From Luteibaculum oceani (GTDB lineage Bacteria > Bacteroidota > Bacteroidia > Flavobacteriales_D > Luteibaculaceae): a DNA stretch of 64,000 nt. The stretch spans positions 124,001-188,000 of the forward strand of contig NZ_VORB01000004.1 of the NCBI RefSeq assembly GCF_007995015.1, in the 5' to 3' direction. Shown one piece after another: positions 4,113 through 24,962 of the stretch (its first letter is position 1; every line of letters begins with the position of its first letter). Both the position numbers and the translations under genes were made by a program. The notes beneath the pieces are model-generated. The model searched no databases, was not told the origin of the DNA, and saw only the letters and a program-made list of their open reading frames with translations.

Positions 4113-4161
4113 TTAGCATTTAGTTGTAGACGACTTATGCAAATTTTTAATATTTTAAAAT

Positions 4162-4645: not shown

Positions 4646-4659
4646 TCAACATTCAAATC

Positions 4660-6565: not shown

Positions 6566-6745
6566 TCATTTTCATTTTTTTCATTGATAAAAAAACGAAA
6601 CAAAAAAATCTAGGCCTAGACATTTCTTTTGTCATAGCTGGACGATAAACATAAGTGCGGCCAGGCGAGCTATCGCTTCCTGGTCTTACTAATGTTTATT
6701 CTACATCTATTTCCTCAGAAATCTATGGCCAAAGGGACGCACGGA
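6566..6745. repeat. stem-loop repeat, copy B (divergent stem)
   Basis: It has the same flanks as copies A, C and D, but the palindrome sequence is different: ATAAACAT...AGT...GGCCAGG pairs with CCTGGTC...ACT...ATGTTTAT (about 6645-6699), capped by GCGA/TCGC. It lacks the gtcttcgacc loop of the other copies and ends near a G9 tract (6754-6762). Confidence 0.7.
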
Positions 6746-6822
6746 CGGTTGTCGGGGGGGGGCTCGCTTTGTGGCTAACGGGATCCCGCTAATTGCGGGA
6801 TGACTGCTACCGGTTTTAAACG

Positions 6823-6869
6823 GTTATCGAGTGCCCAGGCGTAAAAAAGCCTAGGTGTATCGAGATAAC
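6823..6869 (+). repeat. double-stem hairpin element, copy 2
   Basis: Outer stem GTTATC (6823-6828) with GATAAC (6864-6869). Conserved GAGTG (6829-6833) and TGTATCGA (6856-6863). The inner stem is changed to CCAGGC (6835-6840) with GCCTAGG (6849-6855, one bulged A). Confidence 0.75.
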
Positions 6870-6984
6870 ATAAGCGAAGTACTCTGCCATACTCCAGAAC
6901 TGTCATTTCGAACGTAACGAAGTGAAGAGAGAAATCCCGTATGGGAGGTGCATTGCCCAATAATCTTTTTAGGTATCCTTATGT

Positions 6985-7200
6985 TTTTCTCACTTTACTT
7001 TTTTCATTACCAAAAAAGTAAACAAAAAGGCTAGGACTGCCTTTCTTCAGCTTGACTCACTTTTGAAGCATTAAGAAAATCTAAAAGGAACTCCAACAAC
7101 CTCGGTTTGTTGTCTTCGACCATGTCGTTCTTTTGATTTTCTAAATGCTTCTTCAGTTTATCTGCACCTCAGAAAGGATGTCCGCCAAGGACGCACGAAT
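6985..7200. repeat. stem-loop repeat, copy C
   Basis: A TACTTTTTT/AAAAAAGTA hairpin is followed by ctagg and a long palindrome. The left arm at 7065-7091 (gaagcattaagaaaat...) pairs with the right arm at 7127-7151 (gttcttttgattttct...) through about 24 positions. The inner stem is CAACAA/TTGTTG. The loop carries gtcttcgaccatgtc. Compared with copies A and D the paired bases have changed on both sides. Confidence 0.75.
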
Positions 7201-7384
7201 AGTAATCGAAGGGAGGAGTCGAAATGGTTAACGGGATCTCTCCTATCGTCGAGATGACAGGGTTGCTCAAAGGCGGAGGAAGAAGCCAAGCTACAAAGCT
7301 GTCATTTCGAACGGAACGGAGTGTAGAGAGAAATCCCGAATGGGAGGGGCATTGCCCATAAACATTTCTGTAATCTTTAGTTTT

Positions 7385-7600
7385 TCTCACTTTACTTTTT
7401 TCATTACCAAAAAAGTAAACAAAAAGTCTAGGGCTGCAGATCCCTCTCTCATTCATCTTCAGAAATCCTTAGAAAGACCTAAAAGGATTTCCCCAAGCCT
7501 GGGTCTTGTGTCTTCGACCCTGTCAATCTTTTGGTTTTCTATGGATTTCTTTTGATTCATTTCGATCTTGATCTGATGCCCAGAAGGACGCACGAACGAT
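7385..7600. repeat. stem-loop repeat, copy D
   Basis: Arms 7461-7476 and 7535-7550 (agaaatccttagaaag with ttttctatggatttct), middle stem ctaaaaggatt/aatcttttgg, inner CAAG/CTTG, loop gtcttcgaccctgtc. The T-rich hairpin at the left matches copy C (TACTTTTTT type) while the palindrome matches copy A, so copies appear mosaic. Confidence 0.75.
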
Positions 7601-7674
7601 TGGAGGAGGGGTGAATCGCGGTGTTGTGTACGGGATCCTGCCTAATACGGGATGACAGCTGCGGGTTTAATACG

Positions 7675-7718
7675 GTTATCGAGTGCACACGCCACAAGCG
7701 TGGGTGTATCGAGATAAC
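7675..7718 (+). repeat. double-stem hairpin element, copy 3
   Basis: Outer stem GTTATC (7675-7680) with GATAAC (7713-7718). GAGTG and TGTATCGA are conserved. The inner stem is CACGC (7688-7692) with GCGTG (7698-7702). Confidence 0.75.
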
Positions 7719-7897
7719 ATAGGCAGAGGATTTATCCTTGTTACAAAGCTGTCATTCCGAGCGTAACGGAGTGAAGAGAGAAATCCCGTATGAGAGACAC
7801 ATTGCCCATAAACATTTCTGTAATCTTTAGTTTTTCTCATTTTCATTTTTTTCATTGATAAAAAAACGAAACAAAAAAATCTAGGCCTAGACATTTC

Positions 7898-7930
7898 TTT
7901 GCTCAAAACCCAGTTGGCTTTCTATTTTTG
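7898..7930 (+). promoter_or_regulatory. Bacteroidota-type promoter of the polysaccharide operon
   Basis: A -33 box TTTG (7898-7901) is followed after 21 bases by a perfect -7 box TATTTTTG (7923-7930, consensus TAnnTTTG). The upxY ATG lies 38 bp further on. The -33 box is located at the truncated end of the last repeat unit (acatttctttg), so the repeat supplies part of this promoter. Confidence 0.65.
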
Positions 7931-7968
7931 CTAATTATTCCCGAACCTACAATACCGACAATTTGGTA

Positions 7969-8469
7969 ATGAGTAACCCGAGTCAGAATGATAACAAGCA
8001 ATGGATGGCGGTGTATGTACGCTCTCGAAATGAGAAAAAAGTACAGCTTCGATTAGAGATGCAAGGTATAGAAGCCTATGCTCCCGTACAAGAAGTAAAA
8101 CGCCAGTGGAGCGATCGAGTTAAAAAGGTAAAGATCCCAGTAATTCCATCTTATGTTTTTGTTCGGACAGATGAGCGAGAGCGCCAAAAAATATTGCAGG
8201 ACCCGGCCGTTATGAATTTCGTTTTTTGGCTGGGAAAACCAGCCATTATTCGTGATGAAGAAATAAATAGAATCAAGTTTATTTTAAAGGAAAAGGACTT
8301 AGACGAGGAAATAAAATTTGAGCAACTCCAAGCTGGGGATAACGTTGAAATTAAATCCGGGGCTTTTTCAGGTGAAATTGCGGAGGTATTGGAAGACCGA
8401 AAAAGTGAAGTAACAGTGATCCTAAAGAGCCTGGGTGTAAAATTGACTGTATCTAAAATTGTTTTATAA
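7969..8469 (+). CDS. UpxY/NusG-type transcription antiterminator
   Basis: The 166-residue protein has an N-terminal NGN domain (WMAVYVRSRNEKKV at the start, then a VIPSYVFVRTDE segment) and a C-terminal KOW domain (LQAGDNVEIKSGAFSGEIAE). It resembles UpxY-type NusG paralogs, which in Bacteroides act as first genes of capsule loci and prevent premature termination in that operon. It is followed by polysaccharide genes on the same strand, which supports that role. ATG 7969 was preferred over the in-frame TTG at 7963. Not the housekeeping NusG, since it starts a polysaccharide operon and lacks secE or ribosomal-protein neighbours. Confidence 0.85.
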   Translation: MSNPSQNDNKQWMAVYVRSRNEKKVQLRLEMQGIEAYAPVQEVKRQWSDRVKKVKIPVIPSYVFVRTDERERQKILQDPAVMNFVFWLGKPAIIRDEEINRIKFILKEKDLDEEIKFEQLQAGDNVEIKSGAFSGEIAEVLEDRKSEVTVILKSLGVKLTVSKIVL

Positions 8470-8530
8470 CCCCCTAAAGCTACATTTCCCACTTTTTACC
8501 TGTCCACCTTTAACTTTCCACTATAAAATC

Positions 8531-9286
8531 ATGACAAACATTCAACTAATAGAAATTGCTAAAAAGGCCGCAAAGGCAGCAGGTAAAGAAATCATAGAAA
8601 TCTATGAAACTGGTGACTTTTCTATAGAAGCAAAGGAAGATAACTCTCCATTAACCATCGCAGATCAGGCCGCGCACAATATTATTATTCAACATTTAAA
8701 AGAAACAAATCTTCCCGTTTTAAGTGAGGAGGGTCGTGATATTCCGTATTCAGAGCGAAGTGCATGGAATAAATTTTGGATGGTAGATCCTTTGGATGGA
8801 ACAAAAGAGTTTATAAAAAAGAATGGTGAGTTTACGGTAAACATTGCCTTAATCGAAAATCAAAAGCCGATTCACGGAGTGGTTTACGCACCGGTGTTGG
8901 ATAAAATGTATTTCACTACCGATGGTGGCGCATCTATGCTAGAAGGAGAGGTTGAGACTAAATTGAACTCGAATCCGTATGAAGAAATTAAAAACATCGT
9001 AGCCTCTCGTTCACACAAATCTCCAGAAACAGAGGAAGTTTTGGCAAAATACCCCAATGCCAAGGTGCTTTCAATGGGCTCCTCCCTAAAGTTTATGCTA
9101 CTCGCTGAAGGAAAAGCGCAGTTATATCCCCGATTTGCCCCTACCATGGAATGGGATACTGCTGCTGCTCATGCTGTTTTGAGTGCTTTAAATTACTCCG
9201 TTAAAAATCCAGAAGGCCAAGAATTACGATACAACAAAGAAAACTTGTTGAATCCATTTTTTGTGGCGAAAGGGATGAAGGGATGA
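8531..9286 (+). CDS. cysQ: 3'(2'),5'-bisphosphate nucleotidase (PAP phosphatase)
   Basis: CysQ dephosphorylates PAP, the by-product of PAPS use, to AMP. The 251-residue protein belongs to the inositol-monophosphatase fold: EEG (66-68), DPLDGT (86-91) and EWDTAAA (from 207) are the Mg2+/Li+-site motifs. The start is ATG 8531, 61 bp after upxY; the longer open frame to 8459 has no family counterpart. Being placed in a polysaccharide operon beside cysC/cysD/cysN, and with no PAPS reductase in view, it most likely clears PAP made by sulfotransferases. Cytoplasmic. Confidence 0.92.
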   Translation: MTNIQLIEIAKKAAKAAGKEIIEIYETGDFSIEAKEDNSPLTIADQAAHNIIIQHLKETNLPVLSEEGRDIPYSERSAWNKFWMVDPLDGTKEFIKKNGEFTVNIALIENQKPIHGVVYAPVLDKMYFTTDGGASMLEGEVETKLNSNPYEEIKNIVASRSHKSPETEEVLAKYPNAKVLSMGSSLKFMLLAEGKAQLYPRFAPTMEWDTAAAHAVLSALNYSVKNPEGQELRYNKENLLNPFFVAKGMKG

Positions 9287-9306
9287 AGGGATGAAGGGAT
9301 GAAGGG
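9276..9306. repeat. minisatellite, gatgaag units
   Basis: A four-unit gggatgaa repeat overlaps the last codons of cysQ (stop TGA is inside the repeat). The reverse-complement word ttcatccc forms the array at 47551-47612. Confidence 0.7.
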
Positions 9307-9417
9307 AAAATCGGAAATCTGCAATTCAACGCAAATTATCCCTCATCTTTTCATTAATTAATCTCACTTGACTGAAACTGTAATTTCAAGATCCCCGATG
9401 ATTTCAAACTAAAACAT

Positions 9418-10074
9418 ATGCATATCTCAGTAGTAATACCTGTATTTAAAGCAAAGCCATACCTGAAAGAATTGGTTTTCCGTTTGGAAAAGGCGCTTAG
9501 GGGGTTATGGGTTGATTACGAACTGATTTTTATTGAGGATTGCAGTGAGGATGGAACTTTAGAATTGGCAAGTGATTTGGCATTAAATATTCCCGAACTG
9601 CAAATCCATCCCAATGAAGAAAATATAGGTCAGCACCCTTCTATTTTAAAAGGTTTAAAACTAGCCAAGGGGGATTGGGTGGTAGTAATGGATTGTGATT
9701 TACAAGAACACCCAGAAGATATTTCCCGCTTACTTAAAAAGGCCTTGGAAGGATTTGAAATTGTCTTAGCCCAAAGAAAGCGACTTGCTTCCAACCGTAA
9801 AAAAGCGATAAGCTCAGCCCTTTTTTATAGATTAATGAGAGGGTTTGGATATATCCATAATCCTGAAATAGCCAATTTTGGTATTTATTCTAACGAGGTG
9901 ATTTCGGAAGTTTTGAAAATGACAAAACCTGATTTTTTCCCTTTACGAATAGCAAAGTCCACCAGAAAAAAAACAGCTATATATGTGGATTATACCGAGA
10001 CAAAAACATCAACATATACTTTAGCAAAGCGTTTTAAATTGGGCGCTTCTATTTTTTGGCAGCAATGGAGGTAA
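9418..10074 (+). CDS. family 2 glycosyltransferase
   Basis: The 218-residue GT-A fold protein has the N-terminal VVIPVFKAKPYL strand, IEDCSEDGT (39-47) and the metal-binding DCD (92-94) followed by LQEHPED, a DPM1/GtrB-like pattern. Unlike GtrB it ends without C-terminal membrane helices. It should transfer a sugar from a nucleotide donor, possibly to a lipid carrier, in surface polysaccharide synthesis; donor and acceptor cannot be told. Its last 10 bp overlap the next gene. Confidence 0.85.
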   Translation: MHISVVIPVFKAKPYLKELVFRLEKALRGLWVDYELIFIEDCSEDGTLELASDLALNIPELQIHPNEENIGQHPSILKGLKLAKGDWVVVMDCDLQEHPEDISRLLKKALEGFEIVLAQRKRLASNRKKAISSALFYRLMRGFGYIHNPEIANFGIYSNEVISEVLKMTKPDFFPLRIAKSTRKKTAIYVDYTETKTSTYTLAKRFKLGASIFWQQWR

Positions 10075-10772
10075 AAGCATTAGCTTGGGATAGTGTTTTT
10101 TTTGGTTTTCCGGTTGGAATGGTTGATTATTCAAATCTACCTGTCAACATTGGCAATGGTAAATCTACCAAAGAGTTTCAATTAATTTATAATACCCACC
10201 CTCATATTAGTCCTCCATTTGGTTATACTGAAAGCTACCAAGGGGGTAAAGTCACTTTCCAAAAGGAAATACATCACCCCTCCTTACCTATCTTACATAA
10301 AGATTTTTGTTTAAGTACACGAAAACCTAGTACGCAAGATTATAATTTAAAAAGATCACTTCAGGAACTTTACTTTTTAGCTGGACACCGCAGTCGTTTT
10401 AAACTGGACCAAGAAATTGGCGATTTAAATTTTAAGCGCCTATACACCCATTGGTTAAATGAGTCTTTCAGTGGAAAAATGGGCGATACCGTATATCAGT
10501 TAATTTATAAGGAGAAATTAGTGGGTGTGCTTTCCCTTAAAAAAACAGCTAACACAACAAGTATTAGCATAATTGCCGTCCATCCGAAATTCCAAGGCCA
10601 GGAAATTGGTACCACGCTTATTAGATTTGCAGAAATTTGGGGAGAAATTCAAGGATGCACGTCATTGGAAGTGAACACCCAAACTTGCAATACTAAATCG
10701 ATTGCACTATATAAAAAGTGTGGTTTCAGCATTAAAAATCAAATAAACGTTCAACACTTTTGGAAGAAATAG
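10065..10772 (+). CDS. GNAT acetyltransferase, WecD-like
   Basis: About 235 residues. The C-terminal half is a GNAT domain (VYQLIYKEKLVGVLSLKK, then IIAVHPKFQGQEIGTTLIRF, the acetyl-CoA-binding Q/RxxGxG/A-like loop, and SIALYKKCGFS). N-terminal LAWDSVFFGFPVG matches dTDP-fucosamine acetyltransferase WecD. The next gene is a WecE-like transaminase, so the two would make a 4-acetamido-4,6-dideoxy-hexose such as dTDP-Fuc4NAc (inference). ATG 10065 was chosen over the in-frame TTG at 10056; the gene overlaps the GT2 gene by 10 bp. Confidence 0.8.
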   Translation: MEVKALAWDSVFFGFPVGMVDYSNLPVNIGNGKSTKEFQLIYNTHPHISPPFGYTESYQGGKVTFQKEIHHPSLPILHKDFCLSTRKPSTQDYNLKRSLQELYFLAGHRSRFKLDQEIGDLNFKRLYTHWLNESFSGKMGDTVYQLIYKEKLVGVLSLKKTANTTSISIIAVHPKFQGQEIGTTLIRFAEIWGEIQGCTSLEVNTQTCNTKSIALYKKCGFSIKNQINVQHFWKK

Positions 10773-11923
10773 GCCTCAGTAAATATTCACCTATACCACT
10801 AACAAAAAGCTATACCCCCAAAAATGGCTTGAAATATGTTAGCAGGGTTTTAGGGTCTGGACATACTGGAGGAAACGGATTTTACACTCAAAAGTGTCAT
10901 AATTGGTTTAAGGAAAATTTTGGCTTTAAAAACTGCTGGCTTACCAGCTCTTGTACCGATGCCCTTGAGATGTCGGCCCTTTTATTGGAAATAAAGGCTG
11001 GGGATGAAGTTATTATTCCGAGCTACAACTTTCCGAGTGCCGCAAATGCTTTTTTATTAAGAGGTGCAAAGGTGGTTTATATTTCTAGTTCGGCATGTAA
11101 ACCCAATATGGACATAGCAGAATTTAAAGCAGCAATAACGCCAAAAACCAAAGCTGTTATTTTGTTGCACTACGCTGGCTTTGCAGATAATTTAAGTTCG
11201 ATTTTGAGCACAGCGAAAAAACATGGTATTGCGGTGGTAGAAGATGCTGCACATGCCTTAGGTGCACAATATGAAGACCAGTGGCTGGGTAGTTTTGGAG
11301 ATATAGCTTGCTTTTCTTTTCACCAAACCAAAAACATTTCCTGTGGCGAGGGAGGACTAATAGTAGTTAACAAGCCAGAACTGTGTGAAAAGGCCGATGA
11401 AATTTGGCAGATGGGCACCAATAGAGCCGCCTATCAACGTGGAGAGGTTAATAGATATAGTTGGAAAAGAATAGGATCGTCCTTCTTACCCTCGGAGCTA
11501 AATGCTGCGCTTCTACTGGCCAATTTGGAGCATTTCCAAGAAATCCAGAAAAAGCGGCACGAAGTCTGGAACCGATATTATCAAGAATTAAGGGGCCTGC
11601 CTAAGTCGCTAATCGGCTTACCCAGTATCCCCTCCAAAAATATGCACAGTGCCCATATTTTTTACATTATACTGCCAACGGAAAAGCTTAGAAATAAAGC
11701 AATAAAAAAACTAAAGCAAGCAGGTGTACAATCTGCTCCGCACTACTCTTATTTGCACATAGAAGCCCTTCAACAAAAAGAAATAATCGCCTTTAACAAC
11801 AGCCCCGGAATAGATTTTGAGCGGCAGTTGTTGCGTTTACCTATATATCCGGACCTTTCGATTGCAGAGCAAAAAAGAATAATCTCTTGTATTCATGAAT
11901 TCGTTTACGAGATCGAAAATTGA
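10760..11923 (+). CDS. wecE: dTDP-4-amino-4,6-dideoxygalactose transaminase-like enzyme
   Basis: A DegT/DnrJ/EryC1-family PLP aminotransferase of 387 residues. FHQTKN (188-192) carries the PLP lysine K191, followed by GEGGL; the EDAAHALGA segment (161-169) is the cofactor-site motif. WecE/RffA aminates dTDP-4-keto-6-deoxyglucose. The start appears to be a TTG at 10760, overlapping wecD by 13 bp, since no ATG occurs before the conserved region begins. The wecD-wecE pair indicates an amino-deoxysugar in the glycan. Confidence 0.88.
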   Translation: MEEIGLSKYSPIPLTKSYTPKNGLKYVSRVLGSGHTGGNGFYTQKCHNWFKENFGFKNCWLTSSCTDALEMSALLLEIKAGDEVIIPSYNFPSAANAFLLRGAKVVYISSSACKPNMDIAEFKAAITPKTKAVILLHYAGFADNLSSILSTAKKHGIAVVEDAAHALGAQYEDQWLGSFGDIACFSFHQTKNISCGEGGLIVVNKPELCEKADEIWQMGTNRAAYQRGEVNRYSWKRIGSSFLPSELNAALLLANLEHFQEIQKKRHEVWNRYYQELRGLPKSLIGLPSIPSKNMHSAHIFYIILPTEKLRNKAIKKLKQAGVQSAPHYSYLHIEALQQKEIIAFNNSPGIDFERQLLRLPIYPDLSIAEQKRIISCIHEFVYEIEN

Positions 11924-12033
11924 GTGATCTCGATAGAGTTTGTGGGCAGTAAAACAGATATTGAAGTTCCTGGAAAAGGTAACATAATGTTGTACCAAGG
12001 ACCTTGTGAAACCGACTGCTATCTTTACGCTCA

Positions 12034-13464
12034 ATGAAAAACTTCCTTTACCTATTGATTTCTGCTTTGGGCATTTGGCATCTGTATACTCTTAACAGAT
12101 TCCCTACTCCCATGTATGATCAGGTGTTTTTCCAAGATATAACACTCGCTTGGTTACAGGAAGGAAAATTTTTACTGCAGGCCGCACCCAATTTATACGG
12201 TTTTGAGGTAACCTTTTACGGTCCAGTTTATTTTATTTTACAGGGGTGGATAAGCCAATTAATCGGAACCGGAATTTGGGAGTTTAGAACGCTTAATCTT
12301 CTCTGTGGATTTGGCTTGATTCATATCATTTATCGCTTCGCTCGGCAAATGAAAATAAATCAAATCCTGGCGCTGGTTTTAATAGCATTAGTTCTAATAG
12401 AAAATGTTTTTGGTAATCTGTTGCATTCGGGAAGAATGGATTTTGTTGCAGAATTCTTGGTTTTGGTTGGAGCATTTGCCCTTACCAGAGCACCCAACAA
12501 AAATTCCAGAACAACAATTATCCAGACTGCTGGATCTTTATCCATTGGTATGGCATTTGTAACCACACCCAGAGTAATTTTCTTATTTCCATTCATTATT
12601 TATGCTTTTTATTATCTCTACCATAAGCAAGGAATTAAAGCCATATTATTTCCGCTAGGCATTATTATAACTCCTTGTCTAATTTGGGTTTTCGGATATG
12701 TGGGAATGGAAAATTATATATCGCGGATGCAGCACCCCATTGTTAAAGGTCACATTGGGTCTACTTTAAGTTGGAACAGTCTTTTCAGACAAATGTATAA
12801 TGTGCCTCTGGTGGGACTTTTTATCATTAACATCCTAATATGGGTTTGCTCAACAACAAGAAGAAAAGAGGAGATTTTACAATGGAGTAATTCGAGTAAT
12901 AATTTGCGGAACCCTTTGCTATTAAGTATTCTTTCCTCCATTCTCTTATTTTTTGTCCTGGTGGAAGAAAGAGCCCCCTACTCCGGAATGGTATACCCTT
13001 TGATGCTATGGTTAATTATATTTAGTATCGACCGTTTTTTAAAAAAGTATGGCTCCACTAAAAAAAGATTTCGCATACAATTTATTCAGATGGTCTTTAT
13101 GGCAGGAATAGTCATGCATATGCTTGTGAGCATAGGTATTTTCACCGTAAAAAATGTTGCCCTAATTGAAACGTGGTCGTTAAGAGATGAAAGTAACATT
13201 GAAATAAATTTTGGTGAAGCCCCTGTGGTATACTCCTCTCCAATTTTTTATTACCAAATCATAAACGCGGGCAAGGAATTTAGGTTTTACCGGCATATGA
13301 CCAAGGAAGAGCGATTAATGCATCCCGTTTTTTGCAACCGTCTCGTTGTATATAATTCATGGAAAGACCGAGTAAGCAGTTTTAAAAGTTATTATAATGT
13401 TTATCGGCATAATCCAGCAAAGGAAGGGAACCTTGATCTAAACGCAGCCGTTAAACCCAATTGA
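12034..13464 (+). CDS. polytopic membrane glycosyltransferase (GT39/GT83-like)
   Basis: The 476-residue protein has roughly ten hydrophobic segments. The first loop after TM1 contains MYDQVFFQDITLAWLQEG, which fits the acidic catalytic loop of the ArnT/PMT family of polyprenyl-phosphate-dependent glycosyltransferases. The C-terminal ~100 residues are soluble. No close family was recognised, so substrate is open. It closes the polysaccharide operon and is convergent with the exosortase cluster. Another possibility is a polymerase-like protein. Confidence 0.6.
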   Translation: MKNFLYLLISALGIWHLYTLNRFPTPMYDQVFFQDITLAWLQEGKFLLQAAPNLYGFEVTFYGPVYFILQGWISQLIGTGIWEFRTLNLLCGFGLIHIIYRFARQMKINQILALVLIALVLIENVFGNLLHSGRMDFVAEFLVLVGAFALTRAPNKNSRTTIIQTAGSLSIGMAFVTTPRVIFLFPFIIYAFYYLYHKQGIKAILFPLGIIITPCLIWVFGYVGMENYISRMQHPIVKGHIGSTLSWNSLFRQMYNVPLVGLFIINILIWVCSTTRRKEEILQWSNSSNNLRNPLLLSILSSILLFFVLVEERAPYSGMVYPLMLWLIIFSIDRFLKKYGSTKKRFRIQFIQMVFMAGIVMHMLVSIGIFTVKNVALIETWSLRDESNIEINFGEAPVVYSSPIFYYQIINAGKEFRFYRHMTKEERLMHPVFCNRLVVYNSWKDRVSSFKSYYNVYRHNPAKEGNLDLNAAVKPN

Positions 13465-13660: not shown

Positions 13661-14116
13661 TTATACTACAGCCCCTCTATGCAATAGATAAAAAACAATT
13701 ACCGGCAATGGGCCCTGGAACTTTACAAAGAAAGTGGATAGAAGACCGGCGTATTGAGATAAATTTAAATGGTTTAACACTAGGGATAGAACGGCACAGG
13801 TTAACGCAAGAGCAAAAAAGATGATTAGAAAAGTTTTTTGTTTGTTGACTCCAATTTTGAGGGCATCGAGCAACACCCATGAAATAAAAGCTGAAATAAG
13901 GAGAAAAAAGATTTGAAAGCCCTTTTCGATGTAGATTAGACTGTCCCCAGCTGCTTGGAAAACCTGAATTACTCCTGTGATGCGCTCCCGTGGGAATTCG
14001 AAAGTTGATTGACCCAACACCACATTGGCATGGAGAATAAGAATATGCCTGAGGTAGCCAAAAACTATGAAAAGTAGAATACAGAGGGTTACGTTAAGCC
14101 ATCTTCCGTTTGGCAT
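13661..14116 (-). CDS. exosortase-associated small membrane protein
   Basis: About 151 residues with four or five predicted membrane segments (VTLCILLFIVFGYL, IFFLLISAFISWVLL, TFLIIFFALALTCAVL, PLPVIVFYLLH) and a polar N-terminal loop. It has no recognised domain. Position directly behind and overlapping the exosortase gene is the pattern of the accessory membrane proteins that accompany Bacteroidota exosortases. ATG 14116 overlaps the exosortase stop by 23 bp; the longer frame to 14164 begins with TTG. Last gene of the operon. Confidence 0.7.
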   Translation of the reverse strand: MPNGRWLNVTLCILLFIVFGYLRHILILHANVVLGQSTFEFPRERITGVIQVFQAAGDSLIYIEKGFQIFFLLISAFISWVLLDALKIGVNKQKTFLIIFFALALTCAVLSLVLNHLNLSQYAGLLSTFFVKFQGPLPVIVFYLLHRGAVV

Positions 14117-14609
14117 GGGGTACAGCGAATTTTTTAATCCAATAGAACCAAAGAACAAAAACAAAACTGTAAACCAAAATAATGAAGGTGTATTTGTGGT
14201 TCCATTTCATGACCTCTATGTTGTAATCGGCAAGAATGGTTAACGCGGCTACTCGGAGAATATTAAACGCGTGCACTAGCAATAAGCCGAGAGGCACATA
14301 CCAGAATTTGTGTTTCCAGGGTCCCGGAAAAGCTATGGCAAAAGCAGCAAAGAGCGCCAATAGATCTACACCATCGCAACCTTCAGCAACAACTAAAATA
14401 CCGGAACGACCCAAATTTATTCCGCTTGTAACGCCCCCCACACAACCTAACAGGGCATCAAATCCTAAAAATTTAAGCAAGCCTACACTTTGTTCGGCAA
14501 CAAGCTCTCTAAAAAAGATATGTATCTCGTTTCCTGATAGATACATGAGAGTTTGGTAGCCGATAAAAAACAAAATCAGCGAGAAAATAAACTTAGTTAC
14601 CCTCAACAA
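14094..14609 (-). CDS. exosortase/archaeosortase family transpeptidase
   Basis: A 171-residue integral membrane protein with about five hydrophobic helices. The catalytic triad of the family is visible: Cys78 in AEGCDGVDLL, Arg119 in NILRVAAL and His138 in WNHKYTF. Exosortases cleave a C-terminal sorting signal (motif, membrane helix, basic tail) from exported proteins and may attach them to a surface glycan; this has been demonstrated for few members. It has the length of the short Bacteroidota classes (XrtF- or XrtX-like; class not assigned). No ATG is available: translation seems to start at TTG inside the last codons of the upstream Cys-rich gene. Confidence 0.88.
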   Translation of the reverse strand: MLRVTKFIFSLILFFIGYQTLMYLSGNEIHIFFRELVAEQSVGLLKFLGFDALLGCVGGVTSGINLGRSGILVVAEGCDGVDLLALFAAFAIAFPGPWKHKFWYVPLGLLLVHAFNILRVAALTILADYNIEVMKWNHKYTFIILVYSFVFVLWFYWIKKFAVPHAKRKMA

Positions 14610-14913
14610 ACCTTATTTTGGTTATAAACATGAACATACCAATTAAAGACATAAAAACATACAACAATACGTTACCAACGGGTATAAATGAATAGCATTG
14701 GGTCTGAGCGTCAGATGGATCTGATGCACAAAATGCATATTCTTCAGCACTACAATTAGCGGGAGCGTTGGTTATGGTACAAGATGAACAGTCCGAAGTA
14801 CAACAATAACATGAAGAACCACACACTCCACAGGCAGCAACAGGTTGAGCAAAAATTGGCACTCCAACACTAAGGGTTATTAGGAGTAAACATAATCTTA
14901 AGGCATTTTTCAT
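14593..14913 (-). CDS. small Cys-rich exported protein with C-terminal membrane helix (candidate exosortase substrate)
   Basis: 106 residues from ATG 14913. There is an N-terminal signal peptide (LRLCLLLITLSVGVPIFAQ), then about 60 residues with ten cysteines (ACGVCGSSCYCC, SDCSSC and others), then PVGN, a hydrophobic helix (VLLYVFMSLIGMFMFI) and a short KIR-containing tail. That tripartite C-terminus is what exosortase targets look like. It overlaps the giant T9SS gene upstream by 44 bp and the exosortase gene downstream by up to 17 bp, so all are translated together. No known family was recognised. That it is the substrate is inferred from shape and position. Confidence 0.7.
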   Translation of the reverse strand: MKNALRLCLLLITLSVGVPIFAQPVAACGVCGSSCYCCTSDCSSCTITNAPANCSAEEYAFCASDPSDAQTQCYSFIPVGNVLLYVFMSLIGMFMFITKIRFVEGN

Positions 14914-17900
14914 CAATACAATAAATGTGGGGTCCTTGTATTAGGTTTATGGCTGAGGTATGGGGTAAGGTTTCAATTAATTTGCCCTCAAATGTAAAAA
15001 TTTGAACTTGCTTCGCCATATCCAACAGCTGTATTTTACCATTCTTTATCTCCAAGCCTTGTAAATTAGCATGGTCCGATAATGATGTGGTGCTCTTAAC
15101 TACGTAAATGGTATCTCGCTCGGTTTTTACACAGTTCTCCCTATTGGTCTCCAATTGCAGTGGTTTAGCTCCTGTATTTTCGAAACTCACTAATAGATCT
15201 TTTACAAAAGATGTTTTCCCATCTACTTTCCATATATAATACTCATTCCCTCTATCTCTCGGTGCCAACGTAATTACCTGCCCTTGGGCTACTGTATCTC
15301 CAGCATTCCAGAAAAAACGAGCATCCACTTCTGCCCCATCAACCACCTCAAAGTCCAGCGATTTAATACCACAAGCTAAATTCCCACTTAAATTGGTCAG
15401 TTTATAGTTGCCTGCAGTCAATTGTAGATTCACCTCATCTTGCAATACGGCAAATTTATCCATCACCATTCCTGCCTTACTTAATTGCCAGTTAGAAGAG
15501 TAGAACATTTCGTTGGTGTTGATGGAAACCAATCCTTGATCACCTGCACAGACTGGATCTTTCACCTCAAATTCAGTAGCGTAATCTCCTCCAAAAACTA
15601 ATACATAGTCGGTTGAAATTCCATCGGTCAAATCCACTGGAATGCGTTTACCTTCGCTTATAAAAAACACTTCGCCCGTACTTTTTCTTTTTAAGGTTAG
15701 GCAATGGTTTTTGGTTAGAGCAGCCATGTTTTCAAAAGTTAAATGATGCTCCCCCGCACTATTACTTTTAATCCCAAGAGGCATCTCAATTTCCTCCGTT
15801 GTATTAATATCCAATGCATTTACCCAAAGGTTTAACCAAGTTGTATCTTCTAATACATCAACCGCAAAGCTTCTGGAGCCAATCGCTCCAAAACGAGGCA
15901 CATCGAAATTGATATCCTTCTCGGGTTTGGCCTTTGGAAAATCCATTAACCATAAGAAATCTTTCCTATTCCCAGATTCCAATCTCACTTTTAGACCCAC
16001 TTCGCTAATATCTCTCGCTTTTTTCCTATTTGAAGATTTGTAGTACGCAGAACTATCTTGACGATATTTATGCGACTCCTTGATCGTTAGGGTGTAGGTT
16101 TCGCTACTGCTAGAAGAGTGGTAAGCCTTTACCCAAAAGCCCTGGTATGCAGGGATAATGCTATCATGAATGTAACTGGTCTCAGTTGCTGCATTATAAA
16201 AACCATAATAACCCGGACTACCTGGATCTTGCCAATATCTATCTACCTGACCAAGAATGTAGGCAGTGCTGGTAATGTACCCATTGGTTTTTAGGGTGGC
16301 ATTGGCAGCATCGTTGTATATATCGTTCCAGTTTATAGGTGCTGCATAAGGGTTCCCAACGTGGTTCCATCCATCGTGATCTGTTCTACTATTGGCATCG
16401 TAGTTAGAATAGTTGAATTTCAATTTAAATGTTTGATCCCCAGTGTAAATTCTCCCCGTATCCTCTAGGGTAATAGCGAAGGTGGTATCTGAATTATTAC
16501 CGTAAAGTACTCTCCAAACTGACCTATCAAATTCACTTCCATCGAATGACGCTACTGCATCATTTATGCTCGTAGCATCCGTAAAACCAACATTTAACTC
16601 ATCTAAAACAGTTTCATCATAATGATGCACCGAGTTTCTTACGGCCCCCGGGACATTTGACCCCGAGAAACCATACATATTTAAGCCTTTATTTTTCCAT
16701 GACGCTAGTGTAGTACCTTGGATAGGAGAACTTAAATCTCTGTATGCGACATAAGGCAAAGGCAAATATTTTTGTATTCCGAATCGTCCACGGGGACTAC
16801 CGCTATAGGTTATCGCACCCGTAGAAGCAATCTCATCGATATATGCCGTGAAAGTTACATTAGAAAGCATTTTAACATAGCTACTTTGATTGAGCACCAA
16901 CTCTATCTCAGTACCTATTTCTAGTCTGTTTGCAACATGAATGGTATCGGAAGCGGGTAAATCTCTGTTTATTGATGAACCAGAAGTTCTTTCGAGCTTT
17001 AAAATTCCATAGGGCTCCCAGGTGCTACCGTCTGAGGTTAACTCATACAAGGTTTGGGTTGCATTTCCGTAATAGTTTACGGTATTATCTCTATCCACAC
17101 TCCAATAAGTATCAAGGGTAGTAAAGTTTCCGTCTATCCGCATGGTGGTAGCGGAATCTAACTGTATTACTTTGGTTCCATAGGAACTATTGAGACTAAT
17201 CTCCTTACCGGAATCTACGCTGAACACACCTTCAGCCAGCCAAATCCTACCTACTCTTGGAGATGTATCATCAATATCTAAGCTAGAGGAACCTAGGCTT
17301 TTGGTTCCAGGTCCTGATAACTTAACAATCGGATAATCCACCGCTTCTTGAATGATATCTTCTGATAGGCCTTGCGTTGGATGATAAAATTCTATGTATC
17401 CTGCGGCATTAGAAGTTAATACACCATTAGGTGGAACTCCATCGGCATAGGCACTTGGAGACAGTTTTAGGGTGCCTCCGGAAAGAATATTGATTTTATC
17501 GGAAGAACCCGAAAGGGCATCTAAATTTTTACCCGCCGCATCCAAATGCAGCTTTGCGCCATTGTCTATGTATAGTTTTCCTTCCACAATGGTGTTGGTC
17601 AGCGAAGTCTCAATATCCACATCTGCAGAGGTATTTTTTACATACAGATGATTGTAAGTAATGTTATCCGTTTCTATGGTTTGCGCCGAGGTTCCATCCC
17701 ACCAAAACTCGTAAGAGGTATTGCTATTTGCATCTACCACCGTTATGCTTCCTTCATCATTACAATCTATACTGTTTCCACCGTACTTAAAAGTTTTGGA
17801 TTTAGAATCGAATGATCCATCGTCGTTCGATTCAATAAAATTTGTGGTACTCAAACTTATCGCACCTGCACTCATAGAAATAGAACCATCAACATCCATG

Positions 17901-18433
17901 GTACCATTTCCAAGGGTAATTTGGTTGGATACACCCAATGCACTTAGCAACGCATTGGACAGGGAAATATCCCCCGTTACATTCATTGTTCCAGCATTAG
18001 TTCCAGAACCAATGGTTACCGCATTAGTACCCGCTATGGTTAAAAGCGTTGAACTTAAAGTTAAATTACCTCCTACCGACAACGTTCCTTCTATATTTAT
18101 AGAAGTGGACCCAGTACTCGCACCACTTATTGTGGTATTGAGTGTAACATTTCCAGTGACTGTGAGCGTATTTCCCGAAGAAATATTCAGTTCAGCATCG
18201 GTAGCACTCGCAATATCGGCCATATTGTTAAGTACCAATCGAGCTATTGTATAGCTGCCGTCCAAAGTAATACTGTGACCACTCTCTATGGTAACCGTAT
18301 CGTTTACTCCCGGGACAACACCTCCAACCCAGGAACTGGTACTACTCCAGTTTCCGTTGGTACTTGAGGTAATAATTCCAGCAAAGAGAAGGTTGGCTGT
18401 AAGAAGTGATAGTAGTGACAGAAAAAACTTCAT
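14870..18433 (-). CDS. giant secreted T9SS protein B (paralog of 18704-22330)
   Basis: 1,187 residues with a signal peptide, then a G8-like start (NGNWSSTSSWVGGVVPGVNDTV and later), long Ser/Thr/Gly-rich beta-repeat regions to about 420, and a central block (LPLPYVAYRDLSSPI ... GNPYAAPINW ... PGYYGFYNAAT ... YQGFWVKAY) shared with the neighbouring paralog. The last ~75 residues resemble a diverged T9SS type A domain (LEIKNGKIQLLD, FEGKLIETL) but end in an atypical MFTPNNP. There is no PKD domain, unlike the paralog. Its 3' end overlaps the Cys-rich gene by 44 bp. Probably a cell-surface structural or adhesive protein. Confidence 0.85.
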   Translation of the reverse strand: MKFFLSLLSLLTANLLFAGIITSSTNGNWSSTSSWVGGVVPGVNDTVTIESGHSITLDGSYTIARLVLNNMADIASATDAELNISSGNTLTVTGNVTLNTTISGASTGSTSINIEGTLSVGGNLTLSSTLLTIAGTNAVTIGSGTNAGTMNVTGDISLSNALLSALGVSNQITLGNGTMDVDGSISMSAGAISLSTTNFIESNDDGSFDSKSKTFKYGGNSIDCNDEGSITVVDANSNTSYEFWWDGTSAQTIETDNITYNHLYVKNTSADVDIETSLTNTIVEGKLYIDNGAKLHLDAAGKNLDALSGSSDKINILSGGTLKLSPSAYADGVPPNGVLTSNAAGYIEFYHPTQGLSEDIIQEAVDYPIVKLSGPGTKSLGSSSLDIDDTSPRVGRIWLAEGVFSVDSGKEISLNSSYGTKVIQLDSATTMRIDGNFTTLDTYWSVDRDNTVNYYGNATQTLYELTSDGSTWEPYGILKLERTSGSSINRDLPASDTIHVANRLEIGTEIELVLNQSSYVKMLSNVTFTAYIDEIASTGAITYSGSPRGRFGIQKYLPLPYVAYRDLSSPIQGTTLASWKNKGLNMYGFSGSNVPGAVRNSVHHYDETVLDELNVGFTDATSINDAVASFDGSEFDRSVWRVLYGNNSDTTFAITLEDTGRIYTGDQTFKLKFNYSNYDANSRTDHDGWNHVGNPYAAPINWNDIYNDAANATLKTNGYITSTAYILGQVDRYWQDPGSPGYYGFYNAATETSYIHDSIIPAYQGFWVKAYHSSSSSETYTLTIKESHKYRQDSSAYYKSSNRKKARDISEVGLKVRLESGNRKDFLWLMDFPKAKPEKDINFDVPRFGAIGSRSFAVDVLEDTTWLNLWVNALDINTTEEIEMPLGIKSNSAGEHHLTFENMAALTKNHCLTLKRKSTGEVFFISEGKRIPVDLTDGISTDYVLVFGGDYATEFEVKDPVCAGDQGLVSINTNEMFYSSNWQLSKAGMVMDKFAVLQDEVNLQLTAGNYKLTNLSGNLACGIKSLDFEVVDGAEVDARFFWNAGDTVAQGQVITLAPRDRGNEYYIWKVDGKTSFVKDLLVSFENTGAKPLQLETNRENCVKTERDTIYVVKSTTSLSDHANLQGLEIKNGKIQLLDMAKQVQIFTFEGKLIETLPHTSAINLIQGPHIYCIDEKCLKIMFTPNNP

Positions 18434-18703: not shown

Positions 18704-21700
18704 CTACAAAGCTAATTTATAGGTCCAAAGCCCTTTATCGCTTTGCACTTTGACAATGATCACCTGATTTTTATTCAACTGAATAGACTTTCCAGTATAA
18801 TTATCATCTCTATACAACTGCTGCCCAGTTAAATTGTATATGGTTATGGCACAAGGGCCCATATCTTGAAACCCATTCACTTGAAGCAGCCCATTGGTAG
18901 AACTAAAACTCAATTTGGTATTATTAAACTCAGCTATACCTGTGGTAAAAGCAACCGTAACTTCTTTACTCACCTCATCAGCACATTCTGGATTATTTCC
19001 CCTCGTTAACAGTGAAACCAAGAAAGTACCCGGGGTTTCGAATATATGTACCGGGTTCTTCTCGGTACTAATTTGTCCATCATCAAAATTCCAAACATAG
19101 GTAAGGCCATTACTACTTTGGTTTGTAAATGAAACTGGACTTCCCACTTCCACATTAAAATTATCTGCCGTAAAATCGGCAGATACTTGAAGGGGTTGGT
19201 TGATATCTATTCTTAGGGTGTTACTGTAACAAGTTAATAGCCCTTTATTATTTCTCACTAGATACTGCCCAGCAGGATATTCACGTGTTACAACCCCAAG
19301 ATTTTGCCCTTTAATTTGATCGATAAACTGACCAGTCTGTACATTATTTACACTGTAATCGATTTCGCCGTCTATATCCGATAGATCAAAAATCATTTTC
19401 CCTTTTTCGGCAAAACACGCGGCATTTTCTTTAGAGATTTTTGATGCGATATTCTGATTGAAATACATTAAAAATCTATTTCCAACATAGCTATCAGTTA
19501 CGGTAAACTCATATAGTGTATCCACCGCTAAATCCATTGTTTTACCTGTTACCACATCCAATAAATATGCACAGGGGAATCTGTCTGTGAAAACGTGTAG
19601 ATTACTAAAACTAACTGCGTAATTCCCAGGTCTTGGTGCTTGCACGTAGATAGGCATTTCGTAACGCGAGGCCTTTTCGGGCAAGGCATTTACCCATACA
19701 TTCATGGGGTCACCATTTTCCACAAAATCTATAGCCACAGCATTTGGCGAAGGCTGTCCAAACTTAGAAACATCATACAAGGTATCTGCTCCAACTTTTG
19801 CTCCAGGCCAGTAGTGGAACCAAACCTTTTCTCTTCCTTTACCCTCTTGCATGATGGTCATTGCCACCGCATCCTCATCGGGATTAATTGCGTTTTTCGC
19901 CCTCAGGTTATTCTTGTTGGATTTGTAATATCTACTATTCTGTAGCGTGGCTTTATGCTCCTCCTTAACCTTTAGCGTAAATTCCACATTTTGCTTGTTG
20001 TTTTCGTAAGTTTTCACCCAAAAACCTTGGTAAGATGGAATGATATCATCATGAACAATGCTGAATCCGGTAGCTGAATTGTAAAAACCATAATAACCGG
20101 GGTTATTTGGATCGTTTTGAAATCTATCCACCTGAGCTATAATATATACAGTGGGATCCAAAACATTACTTTGCACCCAACTTATATTTTCAGGGTCATT
20201 TACCACCAAATCCCAATCTAACGGCGCTGCATAGGGGTTCCCCAATTGATTCCAGCCATCATTGGCCTTTTTAAATTGAGTTTGCTCCCCTTCTGTTATG
20301 GAATAGGTAATTTTAAAATTTTGTTCACCCGTTCTTAACTCACCCCTATCTTTAAGGGTTACAAAGTAATCTAGATTGGCATTATTCCCATCCAACACTC
20401 TAAAAACCGATTTCTCGATAACATTCCCCGCGCCAAACTCAAAAATTGGGTTGGAAATATCCGTCGCATTATAAAATCCAATATTTAAATTTCCCTGAAC
20501 CGTTTCATCGTATCTTGTAGCACTTACCCTAACTGCATTTGGGTTAACACTACCAGGAAATCCTACTAGTCGTATACCAGCATTTTGCCAACTTGACAAT
20601 TTGGTGTTTTTAATTGGAGAAGAAACATCTCTATACGCAACATATGGCAATGGAAGATATTTTTCTACTTCGAAAGCAGCATTAGACCCGTAAATAATCT
20701 CTGCTGTGGGAGCAACCGGCGCTACAAATGCCGTGAAGTTAATATCAGACTTTAAAGTAATAAGGGCATTATCCTCTAACTGGGTTGTGGTTAAATCACC
20801 CAGACGCAATTCATTTGCAATCCAGATATTTTTGTTTGGTTCTACCACACGAACTACGGACTCTCCCGGAGAAACAAAAGCCAATATTCCGTACGGCATT
20901 TTATCTCCATTTTCATCATAAAGATCGTAAACCACCTGAGGACTTACCCCTGCATATCTGAAAGTGTTCTCTCTATCAATATTCCAATGCGCTTGTATAT
21001 CTTGAAAATCTCCAAGTAAGTCGAGGGTTGTTGATGCCTCCAGTGAAATTCCACCACTACCAACTTCATCAATAAGCTTTAGTGATTTCCCACCTGCAAT
21101 GCTCCATGTACCTTCAATCAATGAAATATTTCTCACCGTTGTTCCGGCTCCATTTACATTTTGCGATGATGCTGAATACAATTTGGTTCCCATTCCAGTT
21201 AATTCAACCTGAGGGTAATCGAAACTTTCCTTAAAAATTTCTCCAGATGCTTCGGCGCTTGGAACCGAGTACTCAACAATTGCTTGCTGATCAAAATTAC
21301 ATACAGACTTACTGGGTAAAGCGGTAGCAAAAGCTTCGCCGGTAATGATTATTCTACCATTTGCCTCAACAATAAAACTGTTAGCTTCTTCAAGTGCATC
21401 AAAATTTGCATCAGACTTATAAAAAGTAACCGACGATCCACCTTTCACTGTGATACTGTTTAAAAAACTAGCACTTGGCAGGTTATTTTCAATATTTAGT
21501 GTACCACCTGTTTTATCTACAATTACGTGGGTATATAAAACATTGTCTACAAGAAAATCTTGCTCTAAATCTCCTGTGTACACAAACTGATAGTTAGAGT
21601 TTTCCGTAACGCTTATACCAGAAATCGCACCCTGACTAATCCCCAAACCATTCTGACCAGCATATCTAATTTGCTTTTGTAAACCAGCATAAATTCCAGA

Positions 21701-22330
21701 ATCGTCTAGGTAAAGTTTGTTATAGAATGCATTAAGTGGTGCACTTGCATCACCAAGAGAAAATTCCCCGTTAATGGCAAGGACTCCATTTCTTAAGTTG
21801 ACAATGTTAACGTCTGCAGGATTTCCTAAAAGGGTATTAACGTTTATAGCTGAAAACGAGGTAGTGTTTATAGTTCCACCGAAATTGTTAGATCCAATAT
21901 TGATAGTATTGGTAGATCCTAATATCAATCCAACTACTTGAGAACTTTGGTTGTTTATACTAATTCCTCCATTGGCATTTAAAGTCCCAAATACATTTAG
22001 GACCGTCCCGGAAGAACCTGCTCCCTCATCGGTTTTTAACTCTACCAAGCCGGTACAAGTAATACTGCTTCCAAAAGCTATGGTGAGGCTTGAAGGATTT
22101 AGGACGTTATCATCGTCTATGCTTAGTGATTTGATGGTGTAGTTACCATTAAGGGTTACTTGAAATCCATTGATTTCTACATCGTCAGAACTGGTGGGAA
22201 CTTTTCCACCTTTCCAAGTTGATCCATCATTCCAGTTACCGCTTGCATTTGCCTGTATAGTTTTGGCAGCGAGTTGTGAGGGAATTACAAAAAATAAGGG
22301 GAGTAAAACAAGAAGTTGAACTATTCTCAT
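18704..22330 (-). CDS. giant secreted T9SS protein A with PKD domain
   Basis: 1,208 residues: signal peptide (LLVLLPLFFVIPSQLAA), G8-like N-terminus (SGNWNDGSTWKGGKVPTSSD), extended beta-rich region, the same central block as protein B (LPLPYVAYRDVSSPI, GNPYAAPLDW, PGYYGFYNSATG), a PKD domain near 1,090-1,165 (NQSSNGLTYVWNFDDG) and a C-terminal T9SS type A sorting domain (NGLLQVNGFQ ... LWTYKLAL). It should be exported by Sec and then by the type IX system to the cell surface. Its paralog B follows on the same strand beyond a terminator, so the pair looks like a tandem duplication with divergence of the C-terminal ends. Confidence 0.88.
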   Translation of the reverse strand: MRIVQLLVLLPLFFVIPSQLAAKTIQANASGNWNDGSTWKGGKVPTSSDDVEINGFQVTLNGNYTIKSLSIDDDNVLNPSSLTIAFGSSITCTGLVELKTDEGAGSSGTVLNVFGTLNANGGISINNQSSQVVGLILGSTNTINIGSNNFGGTINTTSFSAINVNTLLGNPADVNIVNLRNGVLAINGEFSLGDASAPLNAFYNKLYLDDSGIYAGLQKQIRYAGQNGLGISQGAISGISVTENSNYQFVYTGDLEQDFLVDNVLYTHVIVDKTGGTLNIENNLPSASFLNSITVKGGSSVTFYKSDANFDALEEANSFIVEANGRIIITGEAFATALPSKSVCNFDQQAIVEYSVPSAEASGEIFKESFDYPQVELTGMGTKLYSASSQNVNGAGTTVRNISLIEGTWSIAGGKSLKLIDEVGSGGISLEASTTLDLLGDFQDIQAHWNIDRENTFRYAGVSPQVVYDLYDENGDKMPYGILAFVSPGESVVRVVEPNKNIWIANELRLGDLTTTQLEDNALITLKSDINFTAFVAPVAPTAEIIYGSNAAFEVEKYLPLPYVAYRDVSSPIKNTKLSSWQNAGIRLVGFPGSVNPNAVRVSATRYDETVQGNLNIGFYNATDISNPIFEFGAGNVIEKSVFRVLDGNNANLDYFVTLKDRGELRTGEQNFKITYSITEGEQTQFKKANDGWNQLGNPYAAPLDWDLVVNDPENISWVQSNVLDPTVYIIAQVDRFQNDPNNPGYYGFYNSATGFSIVHDDIIPSYQGFWVKTYENNKQNVEFTLKVKEEHKATLQNSRYYKSNKNNLRAKNAINPDEDAVAMTIMQEGKGREKVWFHYWPGAKVGADTLYDVSKFGQPSPNAVAIDFVENGDPMNVWVNALPEKASRYEMPIYVQAPRPGNYAVSFSNLHVFTDRFPCAYLLDVVTGKTMDLAVDTLYEFTVTDSYVGNRFLMYFNQNIASKISKENAACFAEKGKMIFDLSDIDGEIDYSVNNVQTGQFIDQIKGQNLGVVTREYPAGQYLVRNNKGLLTCYSNTLRIDINQPLQVSADFTADNFNVEVGSPVSFTNQSSNGLTYVWNFDDGQISTEKNPVHIFETPGTFLVSLLTRGNNPECADEVSKEVTVAFTTGIAEFNNTKLSFSSTNGLLQVNGFQDMGPCAITIYNLTGQQLYRDDNYTGKSIQLNKNQVIIVKVQSDKGLWTYKLAL

Positions 22331-22580: not shown

Positions 22581-24962
22581 GTGCAAACACAACCCCTTGT
22601 GAAGTACCAAATTATTCCACCACAGCAGCAACGATTAGTTTTAAAGCTGCTCAGAAAGAATTTATTATTCCTATTACTTATCCCAGCAGCTGGGGCCTTT
22701 TTTGGATTCTATAAGGCTTATAGAATACCCAATGTTTACAAGGCGCAATCGCAATTTTTATATAAAGGCGACCAAAGCGACATGTTGGGAGGTAAATACG
22801 GTGGAAACCCGTACGCCATGTACAGGGGGTTTACCGATGGCGAAAACCAAAAAAGAATTCTTAAGTCTCACGATTTAATCGGGGATGTTATCGACAGATT
22901 GGATTTTCAGGTTACCTATTATTTGGTGGGTAGGATTAGGAAAACCATACAGTATCCAGATGCTCGGGCATTTAAAATTGAGGTGGATAGTATATTCCCT
23001 GAAATGGTGGGTAGACCTATTGGTATTGAATTTGGGGAACAAAACATAAACATTTCTTACACCTGGGATAGAGAAGAAGTTATTGAACAATTTCCCTACA
23101 ATGAATACATTCAATCTAAACGCTTTATTTTTAGCATAACACCGTATGGATCTCGATCTATTTCTGAGTTTAAAAATTGGCCGAGTAAATACGAAGTGGT
23201 TATTAACTCCAGAGAGCGTTTAATCAACCAGTTTCGCTCAAAACTTCAGGTGGATATCGATAATAAAACCACCATCATCACTCCATCCATTAGCGACCAA
23301 AGCGTGGATAGAGCAGTTGATTTCCTAGATACCCTAGCCGTTGTTTACGCTAAGTTTACTACACGTCAAAAAAGAGAGGAAAACAAGCGAAGCCTGGAGT
23401 TTATAGAAAGTCAAATTGCCTCGGTAACCGAATCCATTAACCAATCGGAATACGAGGTAGAGGGGGTTAAGAATAGTAATTCTATTATCAATCTTTCAGC
23501 CGAGCAATCCAGGTACAACGAAAAACTGGTGGAATACCAGGATGAGGTTCTTCGCTTGGATATGGAATTAAATAAGCTGAAACAGCTTAAAAACTACCTA
23601 GACGAAGCTTCGGAAAAGAACTTCATGCCTCCATCGGTGTACATTCCAGAACAAGACGCATTCTTGCAGGAGAAATTATCTCAATTGTACGAGGTAATCC
23701 AGCAACGTGAAACCGATTTACTTAGTGCAACAACCGAGAATCCACGTGTTAAGCAAAACGAGCAGATTTTCCAGAAAATTAGAGCTGAATTACTGGAATA
23801 TATCAACAAATCTGAGAAAGCACTCAAAGAAAGTCGTAACCAAATTCAGCGAATGATTCGTCGCTATGAGGGCAACCTTAAAGCACTTCCTCAAAGCCAG
23901 CGAGAAATCTTAAATATTGAACGTAGAATTGCGGTTAACGAGAAACTCTATAATTACCTGCTCGAGCAAAGAGCCACAAAAATCATTGAAGGGGCGAGCA
24001 TTTCTCCAGAATTTGAGATTTTAGATAGTGCAAGATCATACGGAATTATAGGCCCGAATAGGAAAAAGATGATTCAGGACAACTTCCTGATTGGACTGGG
24101 GATAGTAATTGCCATCGGCGCCATTCGCTTTTTCTTCTTGGATAGAATAGAATCTGTGCAAGAGTTAAAAGACAATACTAACAAGAATGTTATTGTGGGG
24201 ATTCCTAAGTTCACTGAAATGAAGGATTTTAATGACCCAGAATACTTAAATAGCGATCAAGCTTTTGCCTTAAGGAAATTGCGTACCGGAATTCAGTTTA
24301 TGGCCAGTTCTAGTAATCGAGATCAAAAACTGCTACTAGTTACTTCCATGTACCCCTCTGAGGGTAAAACTTTCGTATCCTCTTCGCTGGGAAATCTTCA
24401 CAGTTTATCAGGTAAAAGGGTGGTTATTGTCGATTTCGATTTGCACAAACCGAACTTACACAAGCAGTTTGGGCTGGATAAAAATATCGCTGGACTATCT
24501 ATGGTTTTAACGGGACACTCGTCCTATGAGGAATCATATCAAGAGATAAACGAAAACCTCCACATTCTAACGTCTGGACCGCTTCCACCTAACCCTTCGG
24601 AATTGGTAATTAGGGAAGAAACAATTGCCCTTATTGAAAAACTGAAGGGCTTGTACGATGTGGTTATTTTGGATACTCCACCTGTAGCACCCGTAACCGA
24701 TGCCAAGGTGTTAATGAAAATTGCTGACATTAATATGGTTGTAATGAACGGGAAGCACGCTACCCGAAGAAACCTAGGATTGGTGGAAGACCTTGTAGAG
24801 GAAGTAGGCTCTGGACATACTGGTATTGTGTTTAACGCCATTAGAACGCCTATGTTAATGGCATTGTACGGAAAATACGCGTACAAGTACGGATACAATT
24901 ACGGATATAACTACGGTTACGCCTACGAATACCAATACCGTTACGGAAAAACAAAAAAATAA
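22581..24962 (+). CDS. Wzc/ExoP-type polysaccharide co-polymerase and tyrosine autokinase
   Basis: 793 residues: an N-terminal Wzz-like membrane and periplasmic part (TM about 27-44), long coiled coil (about 250-450), second TM near 505-520, then a BY-kinase domain with Walker A SMYPSEGKT (589-597), Walker A' VVIVDFDLHKPN (about 614-625) and Walker B VVILDTPPV. The tail (last ~35 residues) has 13 tyrosines spaced every second residue, the presumed autophosphorylation cluster. It controls chain length and export of exopolysaccharide at the inner membrane. The start is GTG 22581. Two genes follow closely in an operon. Confidence 0.92.
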   Translation: MQTQPLVKYQIIPPQQQRLVLKLLRKNLLFLLLIPAAGAFFGFYKAYRIPNVYKAQSQFLYKGDQSDMLGGKYGGNPYAMYRGFTDGENQKRILKSHDLIGDVIDRLDFQVTYYLVGRIRKTIQYPDARAFKIEVDSIFPEMVGRPIGIEFGEQNINISYTWDREEVIEQFPYNEYIQSKRFIFSITPYGSRSISEFKNWPSKYEVVINSRERLINQFRSKLQVDIDNKTTIITPSISDQSVDRAVDFLDTLAVVYAKFTTRQKREENKRSLEFIESQIASVTESINQSEYEVEGVKNSNSIINLSAEQSRYNEKLVEYQDEVLRLDMELNKLKQLKNYLDEASEKNFMPPSVYIPEQDAFLQEKLSQLYEVIQQRETDLLSATTENPRVKQNEQIFQKIRAELLEYINKSEKALKESRNQIQRMIRRYEGNLKALPQSQREILNIERRIAVNEKLYNYLLEQRATKIIEGASISPEFEILDSARSYGIIGPNRKKMIQDNFLIGLGIVIAIGAIRFFFLDRIESVQELKDNTNKNVIVGIPKFTEMKDFNDPEYLNSDQAFALRKLRTGIQFMASSSNRDQKLLLVTSMYPSEGKTFVSSSLGNLHSLSGKRVVIVDFDLHKPNLHKQFGLDKNIAGLSMVLTGHSSYEESYQEINENLHILTSGPLPPNPSELVIREETIALIEKLKGLYDVVILDTPPVAPVTDAKVLMKIADINMVVMNGKHATRRNLGLVEDLVEEVGSGHTGIVFNAIRTPMLMALYGKYAYKYGYNYGYNYGYAYEYQYRYGKTKK

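Follow-up and report, generated by a model that had tools for sequence, protein, structure and literature searches.

A diverged exosortase X module with a cysteine-rich candidate substrate in Luteibaculum oceani

In Luteibaculum oceani, three genes that overlap head to tail encode a small exported cysteine-rich protein, an exosortase-like enzyme and a small polytopic membrane protein, an arrangement that raises the question of whether the first product is the substrate of the second. We addressed this question in a window of 64,000 nucleotides (the whole stretch analysed, NZ_VORB01000004.1, positions 124,001 to 188,000) and by comparison with related genomes. The three are real genes. All lie on the reverse strand, the cysteine-rich protein (106 amino acids, ATG start) at 14593..14913, the exosortase (171 amino acids, TTG start) at 14094..14609 and the membrane protein (151 amino acids from an ATG, with an alternative, longer TTG start at 14164) at 13661..14116. 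The head-to-tail overlaps described in the earlier note were recovered: the coordinates give 17 bp between the first two genes, 23 bp between the last two, and 44 bp between the cysteine-rich gene and the gene upstream of it, a possible operon partner that encodes an exported surface protein of 1187 amino acids (14870..18433, reverse strand). Codon scores of the cysteine-rich frame are similar to those of the exosortase frame, and its synonymous codon use (z = 4.2 against composition-random codons) supports it as a real gene. The further suggestion that the overlaps indicate a fixed stoichiometry of the products was not supported, as the intergenic spacing in the loci of relatives varies from overlap to more than 100 bp.

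A triplet of this kind is already catalogued in NCBIfam, as PID-CTERM (NF046080), exosortase X or XrtX (NF046081) and the XrtX-associated membrane protein (NF046082), so that the remark in the earlier note that few exosortase targets have been identified in Bacteroidota is no longer current; PID-CTERM was not mentioned in the literature that we searched. Judged by family scores and alignments, the enzyme of the window is a diverged XrtX with an intact triad. Its best family is NF046081 (132.6 bits, E 1.3e-38), the next-best exosortase subfamily being XrtF (81.6 bits), and it stays under the curated XrtX cutoff of 170, a cutoff also missed in 35 of the 65 further genomes of the order that have a match, most of which show the XrtX gene order. 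It passes the superfamily models TIGR04178 (57.2 bits, cutoff 23) and PF09721 (38.9 bits, cutoff 25.7), and it carries Cys78, Arg119 and His138, the catalytic residues of the exosortase/archaeosortase superfamily, at the places first reported. These three residues are invariant among 38 aligned XrtX-type proteins, and nearly all other invariant residues are kept as well. The enzyme departs from positions conserved at 90-97% beside the triad: G75 is replaced by A close to Cys78, and L134 and F136 by M and W close to His138. In a tree of 132 XrtX-type proteins it forms the longest end branch (3.02 substitutions per column), and with so long a branch we claim no sister group for it. Its AlphaFold2 model has a pLDDT of 91.8; no exosortase was found among the sequences of solved structures, and a fold search of this model and of the third-gene model against the PDB returned nothing significant. 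The genome encodes no second exosortase.

The third gene has no match in NCBIfam, NF046082 included. It is nevertheless found, with E 1.6e-8, by a profile of its counterparts from other XrtX loci that was made without the window protein, the next open reading frame of the window being at 0.25. This homology identifies the third gene, at the level of sequence profiles, as a remote XrtX-associated membrane protein; its AlphaFold2 model has six helices (pLDDT 87.5).

What normally occupies the place of the cysteine-rich gene is clear from the relatives. Among 120 genomes of the order, XrtX is present in 66 and PID-CTERM matches in 59, and 57 of these 59 also have XrtX (Fisher p 5.7e-22), the two exceptions being weak matches. 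There is nearly always a single PID-CTERM gene per XrtX genome, usually adjacent to XrtX, and it lies at a distance in some genomes (loci L033/L176, L099, L124, L164 and L193). A small CTERM gene is found immediately upstream of XrtX in 56 of 65 loci of the order sample, the window included, and the third gene follows XrtX in 62 of the 65; the window has both. PID-CTERM proteins are built from a signal peptide, a short ectodomain, the motif P-[IV]-D-G-G, a helix and a basic tail. The combination of signal peptide, single C-terminal helix and basic tail occurs in 25 of the 37 open reading frames directly upstream of XrtX, and outside that slot in only 4 of 698 frames around XrtX genes, three of these four being PID-CTERM. 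A departure from the usual single cargo was seen in Botryobacter ruber (L146), which has three PID-CTERM proteins near one XrtX.

The cysteine-rich protein has this architecture, with the features previously listed for it. Its signal peptide, which contains Cys8, ends at IFA, followed by QP; the ectodomain of about 55 residues carries ten cysteines (28, 31, 35, 37, 38, 42, 45, 54, 62 and 73), and PVGN (residues 78-81) precedes a helix and the tail KIRFVEGN, which is weakly basic with its two basic residues (K and R). PVGN is not a conserved motif: at this place relatives have P-[IV]-D-G-G, in which D is conserved in 86 of 87 proteins and each G in 84 of 87, and all of D-G-G is absent from the window protein. 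Accordingly, it has no match in NCBIfam at E<=1, PID-CTERM (NF046080) included, it matches no other family, and our own profile of the PID C-termini of relatives did not find it even with filters off. Neither a paralogue nor any PID-CTERM match was found in its own genome. A search of 299 genomes of the order yielded no credible homologue and hence none occurring without an exosortase, the observation that the earlier note had set against its own reading; there were only weak matches (E 3e-4 to 0.009), and those inspected overlap other long frames, contain stops or lack the architecture. With neither a PID profile match nor a homologue, it is the slot and the architecture of the protein, and not its sequence, that mark it as the candidate substrate. 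The proposal that it is the substrate is nevertheless supported by its position and architecture and by the co-occurrence seen in relatives, and from this comparative genomics we consider it probable that the locus is a single-cargo exosortase module in which the cysteine-rich protein is processed by the XrtX-like enzyme.

The trio thus resembles the XrtX/PID-CTERM triplet in the order of cargo, enzyme and partner, in the family and triad of the enzyme, in the architecture of the cargo, in having one cargo per genome and in its exopolysaccharide neighbourhood. It differs in that the enzyme stays below the XrtX cutoff, the cargo has ten cysteines instead of the usual two and lacks D-G-G, and the third gene escapes the NCBIfam model. 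Because two model cutoffs are missed and the cargo has no PID-CTERM motif, we class the trio as a strongly diverged variant of the catalogued pairing, in which the recognition site and the cargo are what is unusual. It is very likely an XrtX module that works like one.

We infer the cleavage, the transfer, the acceptor and the disulfides as follows. The cysteine-rich protein would be exported by Sec and its signal peptide cut after IFA; the C-terminal helix would hold it in the inner membrane during the oxidation of its ten cysteines. The XrtX-like enzyme, with Cys78 as nucleophile together with Arg119 and His138, and aided by the polytopic partner, would then cleave near the junction of PVGN and helix and hand the new C-terminus to an acceptor in the envelope, for which a glycan- or lipid-linked product made by the exopolysaccharide machinery encoded nearby is the likeliest candidate. 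After maturation, a disulfide-rich peptide of about 50-60 residues would remain on the cell surface.

The PEP-CTERM/EpsH (XrtA) system differs from the window module in having typically many targets per genome, another motif and a larger enzyme. It shares the tripartite C-terminal signal, and in that system the exosortase is linked to exopolysaccharide (PMC1569441). This link, together with the exopolysaccharide genes near the trio, makes a saccharide-linked acceptor plausible. A Wzc-type polysaccharide chain-length/tyrosine autokinase (22581..24962, forward strand; TIGR01007, 139.7 bits against a cutoff of 108, with Wzz and AAA_31) lies 8 kb upstream of XrtX in the window, with two large related exported proteins in between; among 80 named loci, such a kinase stands beside XrtX, divergently transcribed, in 59, and within the stretch around XrtX in 65. 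On the other side a polysaccharide gene block (7963..13464, forward strand) converges on the trio, with genes for an UpxY antiterminator, CysQ, a GT2, a WecD-like acetyltransferase, a WecE-like aminotransferase and a PMT-like membrane glycosyltransferase. That the acceptor is a glycan is, however, a tentative assignment, and a lipid is a possible alternative. On this alternative the pairing of enzyme and cargo is the same, and the processed C-terminus, or a nearby cysteine, bears a lipid instead of a glycan, as for archaeosortase A and for MYXO-CTERM and myxosortase. Lipid-anchored archaeosortase substrates are described in PMC7157517, MYXO-CTERM requires a cysteine at its motif (PMC11980579), and most relatives have a cysteine just before P-[IV]-D-G-G, two residues before it in 55 of 87 and one residue before it in 18. 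Yet this cysteine is absent from Cytophagales members (e.g. L157), the nearest one in the window, Cys73, is five residues before Pro78, and the conserved neighbour is the exopolysaccharide kinase, not a lipid enzyme. We regard the lipid, like the glycan, as a possible acceptor to be held with reserve.

Several other genes were noted around these clusters. The two large exported proteins between the trio and the kinase (14870-18433 and 18704-22330, both on the reverse strand; 1187 and 1208 amino acids) are related to each other; the second contains a PKD domain and, with a weak score, a type IX secretion type C signal (19.3 bits, cutoff 40), and in L139, L144 and L168 large proteins with weak similarity are encoded upstream of the cargo gene. 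The UpxY-led polysaccharide cluster is flanked by sulfate-activation genes (CysN-like, CysD-like, adenylyl-sulfate kinase) together with CysQ (1093-5511 on the reverse strand and 8459-9286 on the forward strand), and its product may be a sulfated polysaccharide. A protein of 161 amino acids with no Pfam match is encoded 20 kb from the trio (35244-35729, reverse strand), and in up to 24 of 80 related loci its relatives directly follow the XrtX trio.

Whether the cysteine-rich protein is the cargo at all has also to be considered. It could act within the exosortase complex as a regulator or an accessory subunit, bitopic and retained in the membrane, while the true substrate, lacking a recognisable motif, is encoded elsewhere. 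The missing PID motif would fit this, and so would the distant PID-CTERM genes mentioned above, which indicate that adjacency is dispensable. The equivalent slot in relatives, however, holds proteins with a conserved sorting signal, and no PID-CTERM protein was found elsewhere in the window genome, and we consider this explanation improbable. Less probable still is that the cargo is an ordinary cysteine-rich protein, held in the inner membrane or lipid-anchored and unrelated to the enzyme, which has replaced the PID-CTERM gene beside a relictual exosortase, for which the length of the enzyme branch and, on inspection of the sequence, a lipobox-like VAAC at residues 25-28 might speak, since the triad, nearly all invariant residues and the gene order are kept and the IFA-QP boundary is similar to the signal-peptidase I site of the cargo of relatives.

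On the preferred reading, in which the cysteine-rich protein is the substrate, both the active-site segments of the enzyme and the motif of the substrate have drifted relative to relatives. We suggest, with less than even confidence, that the active site and the single cargo have diverged together towards a new recognition signal, with PVGN replacing P-[IV]-D-G-G, and that the system now displays a disulfide-rich peptide with ten cysteines. The window pair offers a test of whether an exosortase follows a changed recognition motif.

Cysteine-rich cargo is also found in other XrtX lineages. A supported XrtX clade (L024, L027, L032, L033/L176, L035, L132, L134, L169 and L174) and, separately, L164 have PID-CTERM proteins whose ectodomain contains 6-12 cysteines, and the cargo of L124 has four; on the tree, cysteine-rich cargo amounts to three changes of state with the window included, the window branch being long and insecure. 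The cysteine-rich PID-CTERM proteins of Flavobacteriales MAGs (L027, L032, L132, L134, L169 and L174, and the unlinked L176) resemble the window cargo in being exported, in having a C-terminal sorting helix and in coming from an XrtX genome. In contrast with it, they keep P-[IVL]-D-[GS], they belong to a separate part of the XrtX tree, and their ectodomains are similar to that of the window in composition only, the similarity being no greater than that of shuffled sequence (p 0.06-0.84). We do not claim a common origin on this basis, and independent enrichment in cysteine is the simplest reading of these sequences. If the co-divergence proposed above is correct, then, taken with the PID-CTERM proteins that are separately rich in cysteine, it would mean that XrtX systems have repeatedly made a tiny linker peptide into a surface module built on disulfides.

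Exosortase targets in Bacteroidota have barely been studied. The enzyme and partner of the window are also like XrtF and its associated protein (TIGR04128/TIGR04127; Fjoh_1448/1449), a Bacteroidota exosortase with a small polytopic partner that is needed for biofilm formation: in Flavobacterium johnsoniae, deletion of Fjoh_1448 or Fjoh_1449 strongly lowers biofilm and colonization (PMC10936215). The targets of XrtF are unknown (PMC12188702), and at the loci examined we saw no small CTERM cargo beside XrtF-like enzymes except in L185, whose XrtF-like enzyme is accompanied by a PID-CTERM gene and in this respect behaves like an XrtX. With, in essence, a single enzyme and a single small cargo per genome, the cargo having 60-140 residues as a rule, XrtX is well suited to identifying the structure to which exosortase cargo becomes attached.

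Some observations concern the relatives themselves. The clade with cysteine-rich cargo consists of XrtX owners among uncultured Flavobacteriales; in the genus of L033/L176 the gene for the cysteine-rich cargo lies apart from xrtX, and xrtX itself is preceded there by an adenosylhomocysteinase-like gene. In L115, a large open reading frame located downstream of the gene for the XrtX-associated protein (about 6550-10309) encodes 1253 amino acids with 84 cysteines and CDFSSCSGC-like stretches.
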